Of a DNA stretch of 38,495 nt, positions 10,432 through 36,247 are shown piece after piece. The notes under the pieces were generated by a model. It did no database searches, was not told the origin of the DNA, and worked only from the letters and a program-made list of their open reading frames with translations. The translations under genes and the position numbers were made by a program. The first letter of the stretch is position 1, and every line of letters begins with the position of its first letter. This DNA comes from Alphaproteobacteria bacterium (GTDB taxonomy: Bacteria > Pseudomonadota > Alphaproteobacteria > RF32 > CAG-239). Location of the stretch: contig JAFVFH010000038.1 of the NCBI GenBank assembly GCA_017475525.1, positions 1 to 38,495 on the forward strand, written 5' to 3'.

Positions 10432-11973
10432 TTATTTATAACGTAGCCGAAACGTATTTCCCGTCGGTTTTGAAACTTTAGCAGCTTCTTCAATGGTATA
10501 GATACGTCGAATTATTCTGCCATCGGGATTAGATGGGTCAAATTCAACACTTTTATTTTTAAGCAATGCAGTTAAGGTATCATATTTGCCAATCATATTT
10601 CCATCACCGTCATAGGCTAAAATATAACCGTCTTTTGTGTTTTTATAGGTTTCTATAACAGATTCTGTTTGGTCATAAGATGATGTATACCCTTGTTCGT
10701 CAAAAACACCATGCCACGCTTCAATTTGTTTTTTGCTGATTAAATTACCATTTTCATCATAATCATAACGATAATTGTATGCATTATCAAAAGTAGTTCC
10801 ATCCTCTTCGTGGTAATGAGAACTTATTAATTTTCCATCCTCATCATACCAATAATATAGTTCTTTGTTATACATATTGCCATTTTCAGTCCATCTATCG
10901 TGTCTGACCATTTCAAGTTTCCCTGTTTCATAATTGTATTGATAGTCTGTTCTATCAGCACCGATGCGATGTCCGTTTTCATCTAAAACAGCCGTGTCAT
11001 AACTTTCATTTATAAGTATGTCCCCATGATAGGCGATACCATAATCTGATGTATGTTCGCCATATTCGTTGTACTCTGTATAGTAATCATATCTAGAGTT
11101 ATCGCTGTTTTGAAAATCGTGTTGCTCTATTTTTTTTCCTTCGTCATCAAAAATTCTAATATTAGTTGTTGAGCCATTGCTTGTTTCTTCTATTTTTTGT
11201 ATTTCCCCGTTATCCCCATACTTCAATTCACGAGTAAAATTAGGGTTAGAATATTCTGTTATAAATCCATCATCATTATATGTATAATGCTCATTACCTT
11301 GACTTATTCTGTTACCATTAATATCATATTCTGAAGTGAGGCAGGAAGAGGAACCATTTCCGCATTTAGTAACTTTATAGTTGCCGTCGCCTGTATCTTC
11401 ATATTGGTAAGTATATGTAGAATTAACTCCGTTCGCTGTCAGAGTCTCAGAATGTAATTGTCCGCTTTCATAATACTCATACGTAGTTACACGACCATAT
11501 TTATCTGTTTGCGATTTCAATTTTCCATCTTCGTAATAATCATAAGAGTATGAACTTCCATCTGTTCCTCTTTTGGTTAGTAGATTGCCGTTATCATCAT
11601 ATTGATAGAAATATTGCTTTGTTGACGGACTAATTTCGTTCAATTGTTGTATATTTTCTCCGTTATATAATTGCACTGTTTCCGTCACATGATTTTTCGC
11701 ATCATATTCATAGTTATAAACTTTTTTGGTTAAGCATTGCCCTTGCTCACACATGCTTGTTTGTATTTTCTGCGCCAATTTTCCATTATCATCATATTCA
11801 TAAGTCAAAACATAATTATAACCCTCTTTATTTCCTGTTCCATCAGGATTTTCACCATTAATGACTTCTTTAATCAATTGACCTTGTTCATTGTATGTTT
11901 TGACACCGGCTGTTGCCGAAAAAATAAATAAAGTATTTAAAACGATACTTAAAATCAAAATCCACTTCTTCAT
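10432..11973 (-). CDS. Secreted YD-repeat protein with conserved RLRYK tail, 513 aa
   Basis: Signal peptide at residues 1-23 (MKKWILILSIVLNTLFIFSA). The body is a chain of RHS/YD-like repeats of about 20 residues (YDDNGKLAQKI, YYEDGKLKSQTDKYGRVTTYEY, YDENGNLISKKQ), which in known proteins wrap into beta-sheet shells. The last 25 residues are RRIYTIEEA, AKVSKP, TGNTFRLRYK, a tail shared with three other genes in this window whose bodies are different. It lacks the large C-terminal toxin core of RHS polymorphic toxins. AGGAG precedes the ATG. It is preceded by leader RNA copy 1 and a palindromic element. Role at the cell surface is inference. Confidence 0.88.
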   Translation of the reverse strand: MKKWILILSIVLNTLFIFSATAGVKTYNEQGQLIKEVINGENPDGTGNKEGYNYVLTYEYDDNGKLAQKIQTSMCEQGQCLTKKVYNYEYDAKNHVTETVQLYNGENIQQLNEISPSTKQYFYQYDDNGNLLTKRGTDGSSYSYDYYEDGKLKSQTDKYGRVTTYEYYESGQLHSETLTANGVNSTYTYQYEDTGDGNYKVTKCGNGSSSCLTSEYDINGNRISQGNEHYTYNDDGFITEYSNPNFTRELKYGDNGEIQKIEETSNGSTTNIRIFDDEGKKIEQHDFQNSDNSRYDYYTEYNEYGEHTSDYGIAYHGDILINESYDTAVLDENGHRIGADRTDYQYNYETGKLEMVRHDRWTENGNMYNKELYYWYDEDGKLISSHYHEEDGTTFDNAYNYRYDYDENGNLISKKQIEAWHGVFDEQGYTSSYDQTESVIETYKNTKDGYILAYDGDGNMIGKYDTLTALLKNKSVEFDPSNPDGRIIRRIYTIEEAAKVSKPTGNTFRLRYK

Positions 11974-11995
11974 AATTTTTCTCCTTTTTTGAACT

Positions 11996-12064
11996 TACCC
12001 TCTTTCAATCCTCCCCTGAGCGCCTTTGGCGCGGTTAAGAGGGGGGAGGGATGAAAGGGGTGGC
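11996..12064. repeat. Palindromic element in the 5' UTR (copy 1)
   Basis: A CTCCCC...GCGCC-TTT-GGCGC...GGGGAGG imperfect palindrome flanked by short shared sequence. A close relative lies at 19326-19400 in the same position of another tail-gene leader, and a shorter form at 23100-23142. Confidence 0.65.
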
Positions 12065-12081
12065 AAATATTAACCCAAACC

Positions 12082-12114
12082 AAAAAAATTCCATCTTGAA
12101 AACCTCAAAATGGA
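12082..12114 (-). terminator. Intrinsic terminator inside leader RNA 1
   Basis: TCCATTTTGA (complement of 12105-12114) pairs with TCAAGATGGA (complement of 12090-12099), then a U-run. It lies between promoter and gene, so it should limit read-through into 10432-11973. Confidence 0.8.
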
Positions 12115-12240
12115 GGAGCCAACAAACTGTAAGTGCACAGATGGACTTATTCGTAGCATAATGCTCTTATATCATCCGCTCCCCGTTAAGGAGCTATGCA
12201 CTTAATGATGTTTGTTGAACACCGCAACCATTTTGGTTAC
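12082..12240 (-). ncRNA. Structured leader RNA, copy 1
   Basis: About 159 nt starting with GTAACCAAAATGGTTGCGGTGTT (first bases at the predicted start site). In order: hairpin AACCA/TGGTT; GGTGTT box; 5' strand of the long stem CAACAAAC and AAGTGCA; hairpin GCTCC/GGAGC; small hairpin AGCAT/ATGCT; CGAATAAG box; 3' strand TGCACTT-ACA-GTTTGTTG; CTCCTCC box; terminator hairpin. The two stem arms pair perfectly and differ in sequence from the other three copies, which is covariation. Class not recognised. Confidence 0.82.
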
Positions 12241-12246
12241 ACTCTG

Positions 12247-17929: not shown

Positions 17930-19300
17930 CTACTTATAACGAAGCCGAAACGTATTACCAGTTTTCTTTGACACTTTCTCTGCCTCCTCAATGGTGTAAA
18001 TGCGCTTGATATTGTGATTTGTTGCGTTCCCGCTTTCTTGCGCAGTAGGTGTTTCATTTTGTATAAATTGAGAAATAGGAGCTTCGGCAATAAACAAATC
18101 GGCAAGTTGAATATAATTTGACTTTGCATAAGCGCTGCAATTTGCAATCGTATTAGCAGTATTTGAGCCACATTGAAAACTATTGCCGTTTTCATCTTTT
18201 GCAAGTCCTGAAACCATATCCATCAAATTAAGGCATTCCTGTTTTGTAGCGCAGAGAGCTCCCCCTGCCATTGAAGCGGCTTTATTTTCTTTGTAAACGG
18301 CGGCTTCTGCCGTGCAACTTTCTAAGTTTGAGCAAGCTGTTTGTGATGCCATATTTTCAGGCGAGGAAAAATAATTTTCTCCGACTTTATACACGCCGTT
18401 AATATCCTTTTCAAATGAAACAAGGCTGACATTATCTTTCAAAGATTTATTGTCACAACCGGCATCTGTTTTGCAATAAATAGTAACATCTTTGTTGTTA
18501 GCACTTGTACATCCTCCTCCGATACACCGACCAATGTTATAAAACACTGAATCATTAAAAGCTGAAGCATCACCTTCAATAACCAAAGAATTCAGATTCG
18601 ATTGCTCAAAAGCTTGAGCACCAATACTTGTCACCGATTCCGGAATAACAAGACTTTCTAATCCGGAGTTATAAAACGCCTGATAACCGATACTTGTGAC
18701 CGATTCGGGAATAGTCAGATTTGTTAATGAAGTTGTACCATCAAAAAAGTAGTCACCTAAAGACGTTATTGTGTCAGGAATGGTCACACTGGTTAAACTG
18801 GTTGCACCGCTGAAAAAAGAATTTCCAAGTGATGTCACGCTGTTTGGAATAATAATGCTTTCTAAACCGGTCTGAGCAAATTCTTGATATCCGATTTCTG
18901 TAACATGGCTTGGGATAACAATGCTTTTTAAGTTTCCCATGCCTGTAAATACTTGGTCATCTATTTTTGTTAACGAATCGGGCAGACTAACACTTGTCAC
19001 ATTGAGAGCTCCCATAAAAGAATCAAAATCCAGTTTTGTGATACCTTCATTGACTACAATTGATTTAACACCGCGTAACCATTCTAAATCGTGGTCTCCT
19101 TTGCCTGTATATGTGCCCGTTCCTGAAATTATCATTAAACCATCGTCATCTATTGTATAGGTGCAAGTATCACTATTAAGGTATTCACGACTTGTGCTGT
19201 CATAGTACCGCGGTCCGCAAATTCCCGAGCTTGCAGCCCATACGTTTGTAGATAAAGTTGTTGTCAAAGCAAGAAGGCTGATAAATATTTTGTTCCTCAT
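17930..19300 (-). CDS. Secreted BspA-type leucine-rich repeat protein with RLRYK tail, 456 aa
   Basis: Signal peptide at 1-22 (MRNKIFISLLALTTTLS...WA). Residues about 75-240 are BspA/TpLRR repeats of 23 residues (LTSVTIPDTITSLGDYFFDG, LESLVIPESVTSIGAQAFEQ). A Cys-containing segment follows (YCKTDAGCDNKS ... YKVGENYFSSPENM ... CSNLESC), related to the matching part of the protein at 35336-36247. The end is KRIYTIEEA, EKVSKK, TGNTFRLRYK, the shared tail. In other bacteria TpLRR proteins act as adhesins or host-binding surface proteins. Expressed behind leader RNA copy 2; AGGAG precedes the ATG. Confidence 0.92.
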   Translation of the reverse strand: MRNKIFISLLALTTTLSTNVWAASSGICGPRYYDSTSREYLNSDTCTYTIDDDGLMIISGTGTYTGKGDHDLEWLRGVKSIVVNEGITKLDFDSFMGALNVTSVSLPDSLTKIDDQVFTGMGNLKSIVIPSHVTEIGYQEFAQTGLESIIIPNSVTSLGNSFFSGATSLTSVTIPDTITSLGDYFFDGTTSLTNLTIPESVTSIGYQAFYNSGLESLVIPESVTSIGAQAFEQSNLNSLVIEGDASAFNDSVFYNIGRCIGGGCTSANNKDVTIYCKTDAGCDNKSLKDNVSLVSFEKDINGVYKVGENYFSSPENMASQTACSNLESCTAEAAVYKENKAASMAGGALCATKQECLNLMDMVSGLAKDENGNSFQCGSNTANTIANCSAYAKSNYIQLADLFIAEAPISQFIQNETPTAQESGNATNHNIKRIYTIEEAEKVSKKTGNTFRLRYK

Positions 19301-19325
19301 AAATTTTTCTCCTATTTTTTGAAGT

Positions 19326-19400
19326 CACCCTTTTTTCAATCCTCCCCCTTAGCGCCTTTGGCGCGGATATGAGGAGGGGGGAGGTCTGGAGGGGGTGGCA
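19326..19400. repeat. Palindromic element in the 5' UTR (copy 2)
   Basis: Related to 11996-12064: TCAATCCTCCCC, a GCGCC-TTT-GGCGC centre, and GAGG/GGGGAGG on the other arm, ending in the shared GGGGGTGGCAAAT. Same position between leader terminator and gene. Confidence 0.65.
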
Positions 19401-19416
19401 AATGTTAATCCAAACC

Positions 19417-19449
19417 AAAAAAATCCATCTTGAAAAACTTCAAAACGGA
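19417..19449 (-). terminator. Intrinsic terminator inside leader RNA 2
   Basis: TCCGTTTTGA pairs with TCAAGATGGA (one G-U pair), followed by U7. Confidence 0.8.
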
Positions 19450-19579
19450 GGAGCTGAAAGAACTGTTAGTCACACAGTTTACCTTATTCGTGCATAAATA
19501 TGCCTTAGTTCGGAAACTCCTCATCCAAGGAGCGTTGTGACTAAACGTGTCTTTCAAACACCGCAACCATTTTGGTTAC
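19417..19579 (-). ncRNA. Structured leader RNA, copy 2
   Basis: About 163 nt with the same order of elements as copy 1: AACCA/TGGTT hairpin, GGTGTT, long stem GAAAGA...TAGTCAC with GTGACTA-ACA-GTTCTTTC, hairpin CTCCT/AGGAG, small hairpin GCATA/TATGC, CGAATAAG, CTCCTCC, terminator. The long stem has a different sequence from the other copies but pairs equally well. Confidence 0.82.
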
Positions 19580-19586
19580 GATGTTT

Positions 19587-23037: not shown

Positions 23038-23209
23038 TGTTCATTGTCACCCCTCGCCGAGGCTTGAAAAGCCGAGCGCGCCCAAGGGTCAACGAATTAT
23101 TGAATCCTCCCCCTTGAGGGGGGAGGTTTGGAGAGGGTGATAATAATAAAGTCACCCCTCCGAACGAAGTGAGGTCAAGGGGTCAACGAATTAAAAAAAA
23201 CATTTAAAA
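23038..23209. repeat. Mosaic of short palindromic elements
   Basis: Between the two 109-bp copies are further GTCACCCCTC...CAAGGGGTCAACGAATT-like units (near 23045-23098 and 23151-23191) and a CCTCCCCC/GGGGGGAGG palindrome (23104-23126). No gene is visible in 22860-23328. Confidence 0.6.
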
Positions 23210-23328: not shown

Positions 23329-24015
23329 TTATTTGTAACGGAGTTTAAAAGTATTGCCTGTTGGTTTAGAAAGCTTTGTGGCTTCTTCAACTGTGTAAAT
23401 ACGTTTTCCTTTGGTTTGAGCATAAAATGATTCATTATTTACGGGTGTTTGAGGTTCGGATCGGGTAATGATTTCAGCGCCCGGCGTGACAGTGTATGTT
23501 TGCTCCAGATAGTAATTGCCATCTTCATCTCGATTGCCATATACGGGGGAAGCCTCAATCCAATTGATGATTGCTTGGGCATCCGAGTCTGAAAATATAA
23601 GGCCGTTGCCACCATAGTTTTCGGTATTTGCGCCAATCTCGCTTTGTGTATTACTGTATTTGCCATTGATATTGAGGTTTGTTGACACAATTGCATCCGG
23701 TGCGATGAGACCTCTGTTATAATCATAAGCATTCATCTCATCAACACGGTAAAAGTAAGCAACATTCGGATCTAATTCAAATGTTTCGCCCCCAATGTTG
23801 ACCGTATCGCTGAAACAGTTACAGTCATAGGGACCATAGCACATATCTATGCAATTATTATAGTTCACCGAGCCGCTTGGCACTGTCCAACTTGATTCTC
23901 CAACTATGACGTAAGTTTGTCCGCCATATATATCGGGTTGTTTATATACTTCGGCATGACTTGGATTTTGGCAAAGAACAATCATTGCAAAACTTAGTAA
24001 CAGTGTTTTTTTCAT
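23329..24015 (-). CDS. Secreted Cys-rich protein with RLRYK tail, 228 aa
   Basis: Start ATG at 24015 (MKKTLLLSFAMIVLCQNPSHA, a signal peptide), with GAAGGAG upstream; the longer frame runs into the leader RNA and is rejected. The mature N-part has a Cys cluster (NNCIDMCYGPYDCNCFSD), then a unique domain without recognisable repeats, containing TLDPNVAYFYRVDE-like beta sequence and SDSDAQAIINWIEASP. It ends KRIYTVEEA, TKLSKP, TGNTFKLRYK. The body is unrelated to the LRR or YD-repeat members, making it a third architecture carrying the same tail. Preceded by leader RNA copy 3. Confidence 0.86.
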   Translation of the reverse strand: MKKTLLLSFAMIVLCQNPSHAEVYKQPDIYGGQTYVIVGESSWTVPSGSVNYNNCIDMCYGPYDCNCFSDTVNIGGETFELDPNVAYFYRVDEMNAYDYNRGLIAPDAIVSTNLNINGKYSNTQSEIGANTENYGGNGLIFSDSDAQAIINWIEASPVYGNRDEDGNYYLEQTYTVTPGAEIITRSEPQTPVNNESFYAQTKGKRIYTVEEATKLSKPTGNTFKLRYK

Positions 24016-24041
24016 GAAATTTCTCCTTCTATTTAATAAAC

Positions 24042-24074
24042 AAAAAAAATCCACTTTGAAAACTTCAAAATGGA
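24042..24074 (-). terminator. Intrinsic terminator inside leader RNA 3
   Basis: TCCATTTTGA pairs with TCAAAGTGGA (one G-U pair), followed by U8. It ends 26 bases upstream of the start codon. Confidence 0.82.
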
Positions 24075-24204
24075 GGAGCCATAAAACTGTAATACCACAG
24101 ATGAACTTATTCGTCGTTAAACTAACGCTTATTTCATTCACTCCTCTTCAAGGAGTATTGGTATTAATGTGTTTTATGAACACCATCGTTTGATTTCAAA
24201 CGAT
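24042..24204 (-). ncRNA. Structured leader RNA, copy 3
   Basis: About 163 nt. The first hairpin is ATCGTTTG/CAAACGAT, replacing the AACCA/TGGTT hairpin of the other copies with an unrelated but paired sequence. Then GGTGTT, long stem CATAAAAC...AATACCA with TGGTATT-ACA-GTTTTATG, hairpin ACTCCT/AGGAGT, small hairpin CGTTA/TAACG, CGAATAAG, CTCCTCC and terminator. This copy gives the strongest evidence that structure rather than sequence is kept. Confidence 0.84.
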
Positions 24205-24210
24205 AAACGT

Positions 24211-30891: not shown

Positions 30892-31368
30892 ATGGAAAAT
30901 GAGCCTTGTTTAGGTTGCCAAGTCGGCGACAAATGGCGCAAAAAACGCGGGTCACTTATTATGGCTTTGCATGAAATTCAGGGTGTGAAAGGTTATGTTG
31001 ATTTCAAAGATGCCATGGATTTGGCTTTTACAATGGGCATTCCGCTTGCACGTATTTATGAAGTGTTGACTTTTTATAACTTTTTCAAACTGGTTGCTCC
31101 CGGCAAGGCTGTGATTTCCGTTTGCACCGGTACAGCTTGCTATTTGAAGGGCAATGATAAGGTTTTGGAAAAATTCAAATCAGAACTCAAGATTAAAGAA
31201 GGCGAATCGACACCGGATCACTTGTTCCATTTGCAATGTGTGCGTTGTGTCGGTTGTTGCGGTTTGGCGCCTGTTTGTGTTGTCAATGGCAAAACATACG
31301 GACGTATGACGCCTGAGCAAGTGCCCGAAATCTTGAACGAATGGCGCGAAGTGTTTAAGGAGGCTTAA
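30892..31368 (+). CDS. hydC: NuoE-like subunit of [FeFe]-hydrogenase (HydC/HndA type)
   Basis: 158 aa thioredoxin-like [2Fe-2S] protein. Cluster ligands are in VCTGTACYLKG (C-x4-C) and CVRCVGCCGLAPV (Cys pair). The N-terminal helical bundle (LHEIQGVKGYVDFKDAMDLA, IPLARIYEVLTFYNFF) is the NuoE signature. Passes electrons between the flavin subunit HydB and the rest of the enzyme. First of three tightly spaced genes (3-base and 2-base gaps), the same order as Thermotoga hydC-hydB-hydA. AGGAG precedes the ATG. An extra N-terminal C-L-G-C motif at residues 6-9 is unusual. Confidence 0.93.
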   Translation: MENEPCLGCQVGDKWRKKRGSLIMALHEIQGVKGYVDFKDAMDLAFTMGIPLARIYEVLTFYNFFKLVAPGKAVISVCTGTACYLKGNDKVLEKFKSELKIKEGESTPDHLFHLQCVRCVGCCGLAPVCVVNGKTYGRMTPEQVPEILNEWREVFKEA

Positions 31369-31371
31369 AAT

Positions 31372-33048
31372 ATGGTAGATATGGCTGAAATCGCAAAAAG
31401 ATTTGATATTCACGAGATTGCGAAAAATAAACTGGCTGATATTGAAAAATATGAAGCGCATATTTATTGTTGTCACTCCACGGGGTGCAAGTCTTCGGGC
31501 AGTGATGATTTGATTGCTTTGATTGAAAGCATTTTAGAAGGACAAGGCCTCAAAGAACGTGTAAGGGTTGTGGCAACAGGTTGCATGGGGCTTTGCGCGC
31601 AGGGACCTTTAATCCGCGTTGAAATCAAGGGTAAAAAAGATATTCTCTTTAAGCGTGTTGATATTGATGCGACACGCGCCATTATCGAACATTATGTTAT
31701 TCCCGCATTAGATGGTGAGGTTCAATTAAGTGAGGATTTGCAAAAATATGTGTTGTCGCTTGATTTACCGTTTTTCACAAAGCAAGAAAAAGTTGTTTTG
31801 AAAAATGCCGGTCACATTGACCCTGAAGATATCACGGAATACATGGCGCGCGGCGGTTATTTGGCTCTTGAAAAAGCTTTGAAAACGATGACGCCACAAG
31901 AGGTTGTGGAAGAAATCAAAAAATCAGGTCTTCGCGGCAGAGGCGGTGGCGGTTTTTCGACCGGTATGAAATGGGAACTTGCCGCTAAAGTGCCGACCAT
32001 TGATGAAAAGTTTATTATCTGTAACGGCGATGAAGGTGATCCGGGTGCATATATGGATCGCTCCATTTTGGAAGGCGATCCGCACGCTGTGATTGAAGGT
32101 ATGATGATTGCGGCTTATGCAATCGGCGCAACGGCGGGTTGGTTCTATGTGAGGGCGGAATATCCTTTGGCGGTTGAAAGATTGCAAAAAGCTATTCAGG
32201 CTTGCAAGAAAAACAGACTCTTGGGCAACAATATTATGGGCACTGATTTTAGCTTTAATGTTGATATTCGCTTAGGTGCCGGCGCATTTGTTTGCGGTGA
32301 AGAAACGGCGCTTATCCACTCCATTGAAGGTGCAAGAGGAACGCCGCGCCCGCGTCCGCCGTATCCGACAAACAAAGGTTTATGGGAAAAGCCGTCGTGC
32401 GTGAACAATGTTGAAACTTTGGCAAACGTTTCTAAGATTTTGCTCAAAGGGGCAGATTGGTTTGCCTCTTTTGGAACGGCAACATCTAAAGGCACAAAGG
32501 TTTTTGCTTTGACCGGTCAGGTTGAGCACTCCGGTTTGATTGAAGTACCGATGGGAACAACAATCAATGAAATCGTTAATGAAATCGGCGGGGGTGTTCC
32601 TCAAGGCAAGACTTTAAAAGCCGTTCAGACAGGTGGTCCGTCAGGCGGTGTGATTCCGGCAAAATATATGGATATGCCTGTTTGTTATGAAGAACTCAAA
32701 AAGCTTGGCTCAATTATGGGTTCGGGCGGTATGATTGTGATTGACGACAGCTCTGATATGGTTTCGCTTGCAAAATTCTATTTGGACTTTACGGTTGACG
32801 AATCCTGTGGCAAGTGCGCACCATGCAGAATTGGCGGTAAGCAGATGCTCACTCTTCTTGATAAAATCAATCGAGGACGTGGCAAAAAGAAAGATTTGGA
32901 ACTTTTGAAACAAATCGCCTTTGCTATGCAAAAAGCATCGCTTTGCGGTTTGGGACAGACAGCGCCGAACCCTGTTTTATCAACGCTTCGCTTTTACGAA
33001 GAAGAATACACAAACAAACTGCTTGACGGCAAAACAGAGGAGAAATAA
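31372..33048 (+). CDS. hydB: NuoF-like flavoprotein subunit of [FeFe]-hydrogenase (HydB/HndC type)
   Basis: 558 aa. N-terminal thioredoxin-like [2Fe-2S] domain (IYCCHSTGCKSSGSDD ... VVATGCMGLCAQGPLI), then the NuoF core: SGLRGRGGGGFSTGMKWEL and CNGDEGDPGAYMDRSILEGD (FMN/NADH binding), GAGAFVCGEETALIHSIEGA, and the 4Fe-4S ligands in ESCGKCAPCRIGGKQML plus a distal Cys (KASLCGLGQ). It ends 26 residues later, so it lacks the C-terminal 2x[4Fe-4S] ferredoxin domain present in Thermotoga HydB and Desulfovibrio HndC. It is the likely NAD(P)H site of an electron-bifurcating or confurcating complex. Confidence 0.95.
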   Translation: MVDMAEIAKRFDIHEIAKNKLADIEKYEAHIYCCHSTGCKSSGSDDLIALIESILEGQGLKERVRVVATGCMGLCAQGPLIRVEIKGKKDILFKRVDIDATRAIIEHYVIPALDGEVQLSEDLQKYVLSLDLPFFTKQEKVVLKNAGHIDPEDITEYMARGGYLALEKALKTMTPQEVVEEIKKSGLRGRGGGGFSTGMKWELAAKVPTIDEKFIICNGDEGDPGAYMDRSILEGDPHAVIEGMMIAAYAIGATAGWFYVRAEYPLAVERLQKAIQACKKNRLLGNNIMGTDFSFNVDIRLGAGAFVCGEETALIHSIEGARGTPRPRPPYPTNKGLWEKPSCVNNVETLANVSKILLKGADWFASFGTATSKGTKVFALTGQVEHSGLIEVPMGTTINEIVNEIGGGVPQGKTLKAVQTGGPSGGVIPAKYMDMPVCYEELKKLGSIMGSGGMIVIDDSSDMVSLAKFYLDFTVDESCGKCAPCRIGGKQMLTLLDKINRGRGKKKDLELLKQIAFAMQKASLCGLGQTAPNPVLSTLRFYEEEYTNKLLDGKTEEK

Positions 33049-33050
33049 TC

Positions 33051-34814
33051 ATGGTTAAGTTAAAAATTGATAATATGGAAGTTGAAGTAGCCGAAAATAC
33101 AAGCATTTTGGAGGCGGCAAGGCAAGTTCAGATTGAAATTCCGACACTTTGCAAACACCCTGATGTTGATCCATCTGCCGGTTGCGGTATGTGTATTGTG
33201 AAAGTAAACGGTCGGATTATGCGTTCTTGCTGCACGCCTGTTTCCGAGGGTATGGAAATTATTACAAACGATGCCGAGCTCAAGGAAATCAGAAAAACAG
33301 TGCTAAAGCTCATTTTAAGCAATCACCCGAACGATTGTTTGAACTGCTCAAGAAGCGGTCAATGCGAATTGCAAGAAATGACGGCTGAAATGGGTATTGA
33401 TCAAAACGAAATTATCAAGATGCTTTCACAAGAACCGAAAGACGACACGACGGGGGCAATTGTCTTGGATCCGTCAAAGTGTATTGTTTGCGGAAGATGT
33501 GTGAACATCTGCCAAAATGTGCAAAATGTTTGGGCTTTGAGTTATTTGCATCGCGGGTTTGTTACCAAAGTCACCGGTGCAAACGACACAAAACTCGGCG
33601 ATTCGCCTTGCATTAAATGCGGTCAATGTGCGGCACACTGCCCGACGGGCGCCATTACGGATCATGATAATACACAAAAGGTTTTTGATTTGCTTTCAAA
33701 CAAAGATTATGTCACGGTGGTGCAGATTGCACCGGCCGTACGTGTAGCTTTGGGTGAGGAATTCGGGTTTGAATTCGGTTCAAACTTAACAGGAAAAATT
33801 TATGCCGCATTGCGTCGTTTGGGTTTTGCAAAAGTGTTCGATACGAACTTCGGGGCTGACTTGACGATTATGGAAGAGGCTTCGGAATTCGTTAAACGCT
33901 TTACATCAAACGATAATTTGCCGATGTTTACATCTTGTTGTCCGGCATGGGTAGATTATATGGAAAAATATTACCCTGAAAATATTCCAAATCTATCGTC
34001 TTGCAAATCACCGCACCAAATGGTTGGTTCAATTGCTAAAACTTATTGGGCCGAAAAAGCCGGTATTGATGCCTCAAAAGTCAAAGTTGTTTCGGTGATG
34101 CCGTGCACAGCCAAAAAGTGGGAAATCGGGCGCGATGAAACAATGTGCTCATCGGGATATAAAGATGTTGATGAGGTGATTACCACACGCGAGCTTGCAA
34201 AGATGATCAAACGCGCCGGTATTAACTTTAAGGCCTTAAAAGAAGAAGAGGCTGACAATCCTTTGGGCGAGTATTCCGGTGCGGCAACGATTTTCGGTGT
34301 GACCGGCGGTGTGATGACGGCGGCTTTAAGGTCTGCTTATTTCTTCATCACGGGTGAAGAATTGGGTGAGCTCAATTTTAAGGCCATTGAAGGCTTAGAT
34401 GCCGTTAAGGTTGCTGAAATTAATATTAAAGGCACAAAGGTTCGTATTGCTGTTGTCAACGGTGTTGGCAATGTCGAACGCGTGATGGAACAGATTAATC
34501 AAGCTAAAGCCGAAGGTGCGGAATTGCCGTATCATTTTGTTGAGGTGATGGCGTGCCCGGGCGGATGTATTGCAGGTGGCGGTCAGCCGCGTGTGATGGG
34601 GGCAACGTTCGATAAACCTTGGGGTATCAACAATGAGATTCGTAAGCTACGTTCCTGCGGTTTGAACTGTGAAGATGAGTGCGCAAAGAATCGTCTTTCT
34701 CACAAAAACGAATCAATTAAGAAATTGTATGCGGAATATTTGGGCGAGCCGGGTGGCGAGAAGTCGCATCATTTGTTGCATACGAAATATGTTAAACGCC
34801 CCTTATACAAGTAA
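33051..34814 (+). CDS. hydA: [FeFe]-hydrogenase catalytic subunit HydA
   Basis: 587 aa, modular. N-terminal [2Fe-2S] domain (CKHPDVDPSAGCGMCIVKVN), His-ligated [4Fe-4S] (HPNDCLNCSRSGQCELQ), two [4Fe-4S] clusters (CIVCGRCVNICQ, CIKCGQCAAHCPTGA), then the H-cluster domain: L1 TSCCPAW (Cys 296/297), L2 MPCTAKKWE (Cys 352), L3 MACPGGCIAGGGQP (Cys 502/506). The C-terminal small-subunit-like part follows (EIRKLRSCGLNCEDECAKNR, with three extra Cys). All H-cluster ligands are intact, so the enzyme should be active given HydEFG. Reversible H2 formation coupled through HydB/HydC is inferred. Confidence 0.98.
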   Translation: MVKLKIDNMEVEVAENTSILEAARQVQIEIPTLCKHPDVDPSAGCGMCIVKVNGRIMRSCCTPVSEGMEIITNDAELKEIRKTVLKLILSNHPNDCLNCSRSGQCELQEMTAEMGIDQNEIIKMLSQEPKDDTTGAIVLDPSKCIVCGRCVNICQNVQNVWALSYLHRGFVTKVTGANDTKLGDSPCIKCGQCAAHCPTGAITDHDNTQKVFDLLSNKDYVTVVQIAPAVRVALGEEFGFEFGSNLTGKIYAALRRLGFAKVFDTNFGADLTIMEEASEFVKRFTSNDNLPMFTSCCPAWVDYMEKYYPENIPNLSSCKSPHQMVGSIAKTYWAEKAGIDASKVKVVSVMPCTAKKWEIGRDETMCSSGYKDVDEVITTRELAKMIKRAGINFKALKEEEADNPLGEYSGAATIFGVTGGVMTAALRSAYFFITGEELGELNFKAIEGLDAVKVAEINIKGTKVRIAVVNGVGNVERVMEQINQAKAEGAELPYHFVEVMACPGGCIAGGGQPRVMGATFDKPWGINNEIRKLRSCGLNCEDECAKNRLSHKNESIKKLYAEYLGEPGGEKSHHLLHTKYVKRPLYK

Positions 34815-35123: not shown

Positions 35124-35152
35124 TTTACTTTTTTCGAAAGCTATGTGATAAT
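35124..35152 (+). promoter_or_regulatory. Promoter of leader RNA 4
   Basis: -35 TTTACT (35124-35129), 17-base spacer, -10 GATAAT (35147-35152); predicted start is at the first conserved leader base (35159-35160). Confidence 0.65.
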
Positions 35153-35159
35153 TAAAAGT

Positions 35160-35316
35160 GTAACCAAAATGGTTGCGGTGTTTACTAAACACATTAATCG
35201 CGTTTACTCCTTTTAAGAGGAGTTGTTGATATAAGGCTTTGCTCGAATAAAACAAACTGTGCGATTACAGTTTAGTAGCTCCTCCGTTTTGAGTTATTCA
35301 AAATGGAATTTTTTTT
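35160..35316 (+). ncRNA. Structured leader RNA, copy 4
   Basis: About 157 nt: hairpin AACCA/TGGTT, GGTGTT, long stem TACTAAAC...AATCGC with GCGATT-ACA-GTTTAGTA, hairpin ACTCCT/AGGAGT, small hairpin, CGAATAA, CTCCTCC, terminator. Only 19 bases separate the U-run from the start codon of 35336-36247, so the terminator acts directly in front of the ribosome-binding site (AAGGAG). Confidence 0.84.
35283..35316 (+). terminator. Intrinsic terminator inside leader RNA 4
   Basis: TCCGTTTTGA (35283-35292) pairs with TCAAAATGGA (35298-35307), then U8 (35309-35316). Confidence 0.84.
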
Positions 35317-35335
35317 GATTTAAGGAGTTAAACTC

Positions 35336-36247
35336 ATGAAAAGACTAACTTTAATATTAATTTTGATGGTAATAATAACAGCATCTGAGGCATCTGCCGT
35401 CATCAACTGTTATGATAATTTTGATCCGTCAGCCGGATGTTTAAGCAAAACCAATGATTCAGGGACGGTTTATTATACCATAAGTGAAGGGAAGATGACT
35501 ATTTACGGACCGGAACAAAAAGATGAAAACGGAAATTATACCGCAAGCGCGCAAATTCCCGATAATGCGTTTTGTAATGTTTTGGATAAATGGATTAAAG
35601 AGACAACAATTCCGGAGGTAAAAGAGGTTGAAATGAAAGGAAATATTACATCCATCGGAGACAGTGCTTTCTGGAACTCTCATATCAGCAATATTAACAT
35701 AGCCGACACAGTGACTGAAATAAAAGCAAATGCTTTTTGTTCTGCCAAATTGTTAAATACTATTACTATTCCTGATTCTGTTATATCAATCGGGTATGAT
35801 ATTTTTGATGGAGAACATGGTGAAAATCCGACAATTGTTATTCAAGGAGATAATGTTTCTTTTGAAGGAAGACTTTCTTCGAAAAAATATGCGAGCAACT
35901 TGACGCTTTATTGCAAACAAGGTGTTGAGGCTTGTGAAGGAAAAGCAGGTGATGTCCGATATTATGTTTTAACTGATGGTGGTTTATATCAAGACGTTGC
36001 AGATAATAAATACTTTGCAACAGCTGAATTTATGGCTCGCGGTGCGGCCTGTTCAAGTGAAAGAAATTGTATGGATATTCTGACTGCCATTCGTCATGGT
36101 ATGCCTTTTGACGTTGGTCTAAAAACATATAATTCGTTTGCTGATTTTATGAGTGGGAGATATATTCCAAAGCGTATCTACACAGTTGAGGAAGCAGAGA
36201 AGGTGAGCAAAAAGACGGGGAATACATTTAAGTTAAGGTATAAATAA
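35336..36247 (+). CDS. Secreted BspA-like LRR protein with RLRYK tail, 303 aa
   Basis: Signal peptide at 1-21 (MKRLTLILILMVIITASEAS). A short TpLRR/BspA region (about 95-170: ITSIGDSAFWNSHISNINIA, DTVTEIKANAFCSAKLLNTI, TIPDSVISIGYDIFDG) is followed by the same Cys-bearing segment as in 17930-19300 (LYCKQGVEAC ... GLYQDVADNKYFATAEFM ... ACSSERNCMDIL). It ends KRIYTVEEA, EKVSKK, TGNTFKLRYK. AAGGAG precedes the ATG, 19 bases after the leader terminator. This is the fourth member and the only one on the plus strand, so the module is not a simple tandem duplication. Confidence 0.92.
   Translation: MKRLTLILILMVIITASEASAVINCYDNFDPSAGCLSKTNDSGTVYYTISEGKMTIYGPEQKDENGNYTASAQIPDNAFCNVLDKWIKETTIPEVKEVEMKGNITSIGDSAFWNSHISNINIADTVTEIKANAFCSAKLLNTITIPDSVISIGYDIFDGEHGENPTIVIQGDNVSFEGRLSSKKYASNLTLYCKQGVEACEGKAGDVRYYVLTDGGLYQDVADNKYFATAEFMARGAACSSERNCMDILTAIRHGMPFDVGLKTYNSFADFMSGRYIPKRIYTVEEAEKVSKKTGNTFKLRYK

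Follow-up and report, generated by a model that had tools for sequence, protein, structure and literature searches.

The window, a stretch of 38,495 nucleotides of alphaproteobacterial DNA from the genome of an uncultured gut organism, carries four copies of a structured leader RNA, each of which ends in a terminator hairpin ahead of a gene for an exported protein. In copy 4, promoter-like hexamers stop just 5' of the leader, and in the other copies they occupy the equivalent position. The parts of copy 4, in which R1 denotes a covariance model of the leader built from 19 copies, are as follows:

35124..35152, + strand: promoter-like -35 TTTACT and -10 GATAAT, 17-nt spacer, sigma-70-like, score 9/12
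35157..35282, + strand: structured domain of the leader RNA up to CUCC (R1, 117.6 bits; the training set of R1 included this leader itself and 18 other copies)
35160..35176, + strand: P0 hairpin GUAACC/GGUUGC (99% of cells paired in 87 copies; both-side changes in 6/6 pairs)
35178..35192, + strand: H1 hairpin GUG...CAC, whose loop bears segment a (35183-35190), the partner of a' (35270-35277)
35195..35201, + strand: segment b (J), the partner of b' (35261-35267); both-side changes in 8/8 pairs
35206..35223, + strand: H3 hairpin ACUCC/GGAGU, candidate anti-antiterminator, covarying with P3* across genera
35217..35222, + strand: 5' strand of P3*, GAGGAG, with its partner at 35279-35284
35225..35253, + strand: P4 stem with the conserved internal loop GANAUAAG / CGAAUAA, scored by pair and covariation counts
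35256..35271, + strand: H5 hairpin ACUG/CAGU, whose loop holds b' (35261-35267); 4/4 CUG/CAG stem variants compensated
35270..35277, + strand: segment a' (K), the partner of the H1 loop
35279..35284, + strand: 3' strand of P3*, CUCCUC, the final two bases of which double as the start of the terminator stem
35283..35316, + strand: intrinsic terminator hairpin plus U8 (stem 35283-35307, 10-11 bp; eight T at 35309-35316)
35336..36247, + strand: gene for an exported BspA-type leucine-rich-repeat protein (PF13306, 6e-13) with the C-terminal tail KRIYTVEEAEKVSKKTGNTFKLRYK

Leader and terminator of copy 4 together span 160 nt, and 19 nt separate the T run from the ATG at 35336, the same distance that the first-pass annotation of this DNA had given. 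Directly 5' of copy 4, on the same strand, lies a three-gene cluster (30892-34814) that by reading resembles an NAD-linked FeFe hydrogenase, with NuoE-like, NuoF-like and hydrogenase large-subunit products. The remaining copies in the window all lie on the reverse strand:

12082..12243, - strand: copy 1 (leader 12115-12243, terminator 12082-12114)
10432..11973, - strand: copy 1 gene, exported RHS/MORN-repeat protein with the tail
19417..19582, - strand: copy 2 (leader 19450-19582, terminator 19417-19449)
17930..19300, - strand: copy 2 gene, exported BspA-type leucine-rich-repeat protein with the tail
24042..24210, - strand: copy 3, with a variant P0 hairpin (model match 24075-24200, terminator 24042-24074)
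23329..24021, - strand: copy 3 gene, exported protein with the tail and without a Pfam match

Copies 1 to 3 end in the same terminator hairpin with 7-8 T, and the start codon is more distant in copies 1 and 2, at 108 and 116 nt from the U-run. An extra insert of about 90 nt was seen in these two copies between terminator and ribosome-binding site (11980-12080 and 19310-19410); it contains a GCGCCAAAGGCGC hairpin and CCCCTCC stretches, and a similar sequence occurs near 23116-23150.

The local arrangement around copy 4 is part of a genome-wide set. With R1, 86 leader copies were found in the 1.44-Mb, 87-contig genome at scores of 67 to 137 bits, with a clean gap down to the next candidate at 19 bits; one copy clipped by a contig end scored 51.7 bits at first and 70.9 bits after realignment. 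With the genome in fragments and 85% complete, such counts are minimum values. A hairpin and U-run follow all 84 complete leaders, which extends to the whole genome the earlier observation, also borne out by the four window copies, that a 10-bp hairpin and a run of 7-8 U close each leader. Under a stricter terminator test, 82/82 leaders scored positive in comparison with 7.6% of shuffled sequences, and on these counts chance is excluded as the origin of the terminators. Termination at the leader U-run would be expected from this architecture. A promoter at the start of each leader had likewise been proposed, and -35/-10 scores of at least 9 within 45 nt upstream were obtained for 74/84 leaders (mean 9.3, against 7.9 for shuffled sequences), copy 4 with its hexamers at 35124-35152 among them. 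From U-run to start codon the distance has a median of 27 nt and is at most 40 nt in 59/76 cases, a gap too short, in most copies, to hold a second promoter between terminator and gene. The terminator therefore stands between promoter and ribosome-binding site in 84/84 leaders (median 27 nt to the start codon), and the gene behind it is predicted to depend on read-through.

To follow the RNA beyond this genome, two core models were used, R2, which took in the phage-type locus L084, and R3, which was built from gut leaders only and left L084 out to avoid circularity. The RNA was found with R3 in 95 of the 126 genomes of the family that were searched, representing 14/16 genera, at 1 to at least 38 copies per genome, with two genomes at 38 or more. 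With R2 and R3, copies also turned up thinly scattered through the Alphaproteobacteria, and a handful in other groups of the phylum. When named genomes were scanned by pattern, the hits were uncultured proteobacterial metagenome-assembled genomes, of which many carry the label Alphaproteobacteria and several originate in the rumen or gut; the scan for the core pattern gave no match in viral contigs. Within one genus, copy number ranged from none detected (G003 and G007, both incomplete genomes) to 86 in the genome studied here (G000), with G002 also compared, and the RNA has therefore recently multiplied or been lost. Near-tandem units on one strand were seen in L168 (151-272 and 356-480), L113 (6226-6352 and 6780-6905), L125 (2358-2484 and 2578-2702) and L224 (1501-1572 and 1964-2035), often each 5' of a gene for a small HTH protein. 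Such units suggest that the leader spread through local duplication.

The fold of the leader is established by comparison of its copies. Compensatory change supports P0, H1, the a:a' helix between the H1 loop and K, the b:b' helix between J and the H5 loop, H3, P4 and H5. Across the alignment, 95.6% of cells were paired, and cells with changes on both sides numbered 621 compared with 163 in shuffles; the covariation score of the tool-counted pairs was matched by none of 500 shuffles, although such counts are inflated by related sequences. We discarded a candidate mini-ORF within the leader (GGAG..NTGANATAA), as its start-like bases change along with stem P4a. When strands were exchanged between copies, the a:a' helix shrank from 8.57 to 4.59 bp and the b:b' helix from 7.64 to 3.72 bp; the pairing sequences are therefore private to most copies, and 82 copies contain 75 different b' strands and 56 different a' strands.

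A second conserved feature of the leader is a strand with two partners. The xxGGAG strand that forms the 3' side of H3 has an alternative partner, CUCC together with one to four bases at the start of the terminator, with which it can form the helix P3*. Among 84 copies in this genome, the first pair beyond GGAG:CUCC, x1:y1, is A-U 38 times, G-C 37 times and G-U 7 times; it is a standard pair in 70/72 of the genome's own copies and 89/93 relatives, where GC, AU, UA, CG, GU and UG all occur, and in 52/52 sequences of the alignment across genera (A6), again with six pair types. P3* is typically 6-8 bp long in other genera, and its extra pairs there number 2.87, compared with 1.58 or fewer in 2000 swaps. 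H3 varies in concert, with UCCAC, GUGGAG and CUCCAC in one genus replaced by UCCGC, GCGGAG and CUCCGC in another; in L070, GGUGGAG pairs with CUCCACC, and the terminator there is ACCGCC/GGCGGU. Both helices reach at least 5 bp in 66/72 own copies and 63/67 relatives, and the pair is supported by compensatory change in over 160 copies. Their mutual exclusion, and the overlap of P3* with the 5' strand of the terminator (67/72 own copies and 60/64 relatives, or 127/136), are likewise established by comparison. Because one strand has two partners and both pairings are conserved, P3* is a probable antiterminator and H3 a probable anti-antiterminator. The mean overlap of P3* with the terminator is small, 1.5 nt in this genome and 2.7 nt in other genera, and P3* may accordingly weaken the terminator rather than abolish it. 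In minimum-energy folding without constraints, which leaves pseudoknots out, all 72 own copies formed the terminator, 62 of the 72 formed H3, and none formed P3*. Since the terminator folds in every copy and P3* in none, the predicted ground state of the leader is probably OFF.

The genes behind the leaders are varied. All four window genes share the same 25-residue C-terminal tail, for which 116 matches, a few of them weak, were found in the 1.44-Mb genome; 56 belong to genes with a leader, and 60 have no recognizable leader, in some cases owing to contig ends. The other 30 leaders precede other genes or lie at contig ends. The tail (KRIYTVEEAEKVSKKTGNTFKLRYK and variants; 36170-36244 in the window and 115 other places) terminates about 100 otherwise dissimilar exported proteins. 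In the window proteins this tail is matched by no Pfam model; it has the look of a signal for sorting or export. In this genome the leader genes mostly encode exported surface proteins. Those of this genus include exported BspA-type leucine-rich-repeat, RHS/MORN-repeat and other tail proteins; prepilin-like proteins (GRSMVEMLGVLAIIGVLSAGAL) also occur, as do HTH proteins and unknown proteins in small number. In other genera the leader lies mostly before genes for small HTH proteins of the Cro/C1 type, some 75-100 residues long; certain genera have it before genes for other exported proteins. Prepilin-like proteins starting (G)RSMVEMLGxLAIxGVL were observed behind the same kind of RNA at L176, L178, L199, L202 and L206 of G000; a prepilin-like gene, independently placed, lies behind it at L229, in a different alphaproteobacterial family.

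To place the RNA among known families, Rfam models were compared with the leaders and their relatives. At gathering level, Rfam matched only tRNAs in the window; a PyrR binding site match (RF00515, 25.2 bits against a cut-off of 54) and a weak snoRNA match were judged to be chance. The model of sRNA-Xcc1 (RF02221, cut-off 53) reached at best 20 bits on the genome itself and 26.9 bits on L074. It rose above its cut-off at phage-type loci, with 71.6 bits at L254, 67.7 at L235, 66.2 at L233 and 57.5 at L252. R3 scored 28-38 bits at these same four loci, its matches coinciding in place with those of Rfam, and 59.8 bits at L225; four further loci gave weak sRNA-Xcc1 matches at the same place and on the same strand as the core model. 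The RF02221 consensus corresponds exactly to P3*, P4 and H5, so that sRNA-Xcc1 and the leaders have in common the closing stem and the two-hairpin core, that is, a stem with an AAUA-rich internal loop and a third hairpin. The proposed kinship thus rests on intermediates and on layout. The Rfam model lacks the 5' half (a and b) that gut leaders possess; 5' of the Rfam-matched core at L225, L230, L235 and L254, an H1-like hairpin and J were seen in the conserved layout. Gut leaders also differ from sRNA-Xcc1 in the U-run terminator that overlaps the closing stem and in their occurrence as dozens of copies before surface genes. In the literature searched, which covered few subscription journals, we found neither the gut leaders nor the 5' a/b half described. 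sRNA-Xcc1 itself is a Xanthomonas small RNA of about 100 nt detected by Northern blotting (PMC2996969). It usually lies just 5' of a gene, such as symE in integron cassettes (PMC12444791), and several copies occur in Xylella (PMC12189769).

The second relative is C4, the trans-acting antisense RNA of phages P1 and P7, which has three stems and the loops a' and b' (PMC5320573). Leaders and C4 (RF01695) have in common the three stems, a'/b' segments that pair with a and b, and a private a' specificity, and complementarity of a' and b' to a and b was found in the comparison of own with exchanged helices. The C4 model gave no match in the window or in the relatives tested. C4 and the phage-type relatives of the leader share a link to anti-repressor genes: the genes behind L225, L230, L235, L253 and L254 are phage anti-repressors (PHROGs). 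The ORF downstream of the sRNA-Xcc1-type RNA at L233 matched the phage regulator phrog_129 and, more weakly, a family to which the abortive-infection protein BstA belongs. At the phage-type loci, a and b lie upstream of the core and are repeated downstream, and in most of them the second b covers the ribosome-binding site, 8-18 nt upstream of the start codon, as in C4. Gut leaders differ here, in that b' has no target covering the ribosome-binding site: in the 90 nt past the terminator, complementarity to a'/b' was the same for own and swapped sequences. An intrinsic terminator lies where that target stood. Because the target is lost and the terminator is in place, transcription termination seems, by this comparison, to have taken over from translational antisense control in the gut leaders.

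We consider it fairly probable that the leader is an antisense module of the C4/sRNA-Xcc1 type that has become an attenuator of transcription in cis and has spread in many copies through the surface-protein repertoire. Transcription would begin at the leader's own promoter and yield a 5' part with a (H1 loop) and b (J), followed by the antisense core as the 3' part, where b' lies in the H5 loop and a' in K. In the OFF state, b' and a' would pair with a and b in cis and the GGAG strand would be kept in H3; CUCC and the 5' arm of the terminator would be free, the terminator would form, and an RNA of about 160 nt would be released. In the ON state, the core would close on itself, and GGAG would pair as P3* with CUCC and with one to four bases from the 5' arm of the terminator, weakening the base of the terminator and letting polymerase enter the gene. 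This direction of the H3/P3* switch is what we infer from the sequences, and the switch might be tipped by a protein, by another RNA or by the released leader acting on its own locus. Each gene is thus probably made only when transcription passes its own RNA switch. Antisense-RNA-mediated transcription attenuation is known from plasmids pT181 and pIP501 and from RnaG-icsA, where RNA pairing in the leader likewise sets whether an intrinsic terminator forms; the antisense RNA there comes from the opposite strand, whereas in the gut leader antisense and target are in one RNA. The order of parts is also that of type III toxin-antitoxin (ToxIN) operons, namely promoter, folded RNA, terminator, ribosome-binding site and gene. 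Unlike ToxIN, the leader has no tandem repeats, and its genes encode exported proteins or HTH regulators and no endoRNases.

The conserved exchange between H3 and P3* bears on the idea that the leader is chiefly an independent, C4-like antisense RNA (about 160 nt or processed) with a constitutive terminator, the gene living on low-level read-through. The layout does match trans-acting C4 (PMC5320573) and the sRNA-Xcc1 of about 100 nt (PMC2996969), private a'/b' sequences fit antisense specificity, and folding prefers the terminated state. A constitutive terminator, however, would not need a conserved exchange; there is no a/b target at the gene's own ribosome-binding site, and a median of 27 nt from terminator to ATG binds each leader to its gene, so we regard this account as rather unlikely, while a separate RNA of about 160 nt may exist alongside attenuation. 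The same exchange could also serve as the expression platform of a riboswitch for a metabolite or second messenger, in which P3*, H3 and the terminator would respond to a ligand bound by the GANAUAAG/CGAAUAA core. The first-pass annotation had left open whether attenuator or riboswitch was at hand. Its attenuation holds up, given the conserved H3/P3* exchange that shares the terminator base; its riboswitch does not, as the controlled genes have no common metabolic pathway and the fold is of the sRNA-Xcc1/C4 type. The invariant internal loop, the classical platform and the many copies of one RNA class would suit a riboswitch, and a GGDEF protein encoded in the genome would make a signal like c-di-GMP possible. 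Yet the core also occurs before phage anti-repressors and in sRNA-Xcc1, pairing of a/b with the ribosome-binding site explains it free of any ligand, and no Rfam riboswitch matches the leader, which is probably not a metabolite riboswitch; we hold a ligand pocket to be quite unlikely.

Control by an RNA-binding factor that sets read-through, perhaps the leader-linked small HTH protein itself, would fit autoregulation, since small Cro/C1-type HTH proteins are the usual leader gene product across genera. Proteins of this kind bind DNA, though, and most leaders in this genome precede non-HTH genes; a protein-dependent attenuator is very unlikely in our estimate. Finally, many foldable copies, and the ability of sRNA-Xcc1 to move in integron cassettes (PMC12444791), could be taken to mean a DNA-level element, a site of recombination or homogenization whose fold acts as single-stranded DNA. 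We consider this extremely improbable, as every copy has a fixed promoter on its 5' side and terminator and ribosome-binding site on its 3' side, strand-specific G-U pairs point to RNA, and variable positions remain paired inside each copy.

A bolder extension of the attenuator model would make each of the 80-odd surface genes subject to an orthogonal switch, with the released leader acting on its own locus alone through its private a/b segments. ON and OFF states would then be independent and possibly bistable, with no change in DNA, an RNA counterpart of phase variation derived from a phage immunity RNA. A test for selection against pairing across copies was negative, with cross-compatible pairs at 37 compared with 28 expected, which weakens the idea that private sequences serve to prevent cross-talk, and we regard this extension as unlikely.

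If the attenuator model is correct, a phage-type antisense module would have been domesticated as a terminator-controlled leader in at least 86 units of a 1.4-Mb genome, a density of use that may, to our knowledge, exceed that of any other single cis-regulatory RNA in bacteria. It would join sRNA-Xcc1 and C4, neither of which is well understood, in one structural superfamily with a 5' half so far unmodelled, and would suggest that the function of sRNA-Xcc1 is control in cis of the gene behind it. For gut bacteria, it would offer a testable route by which they could vary their surface.
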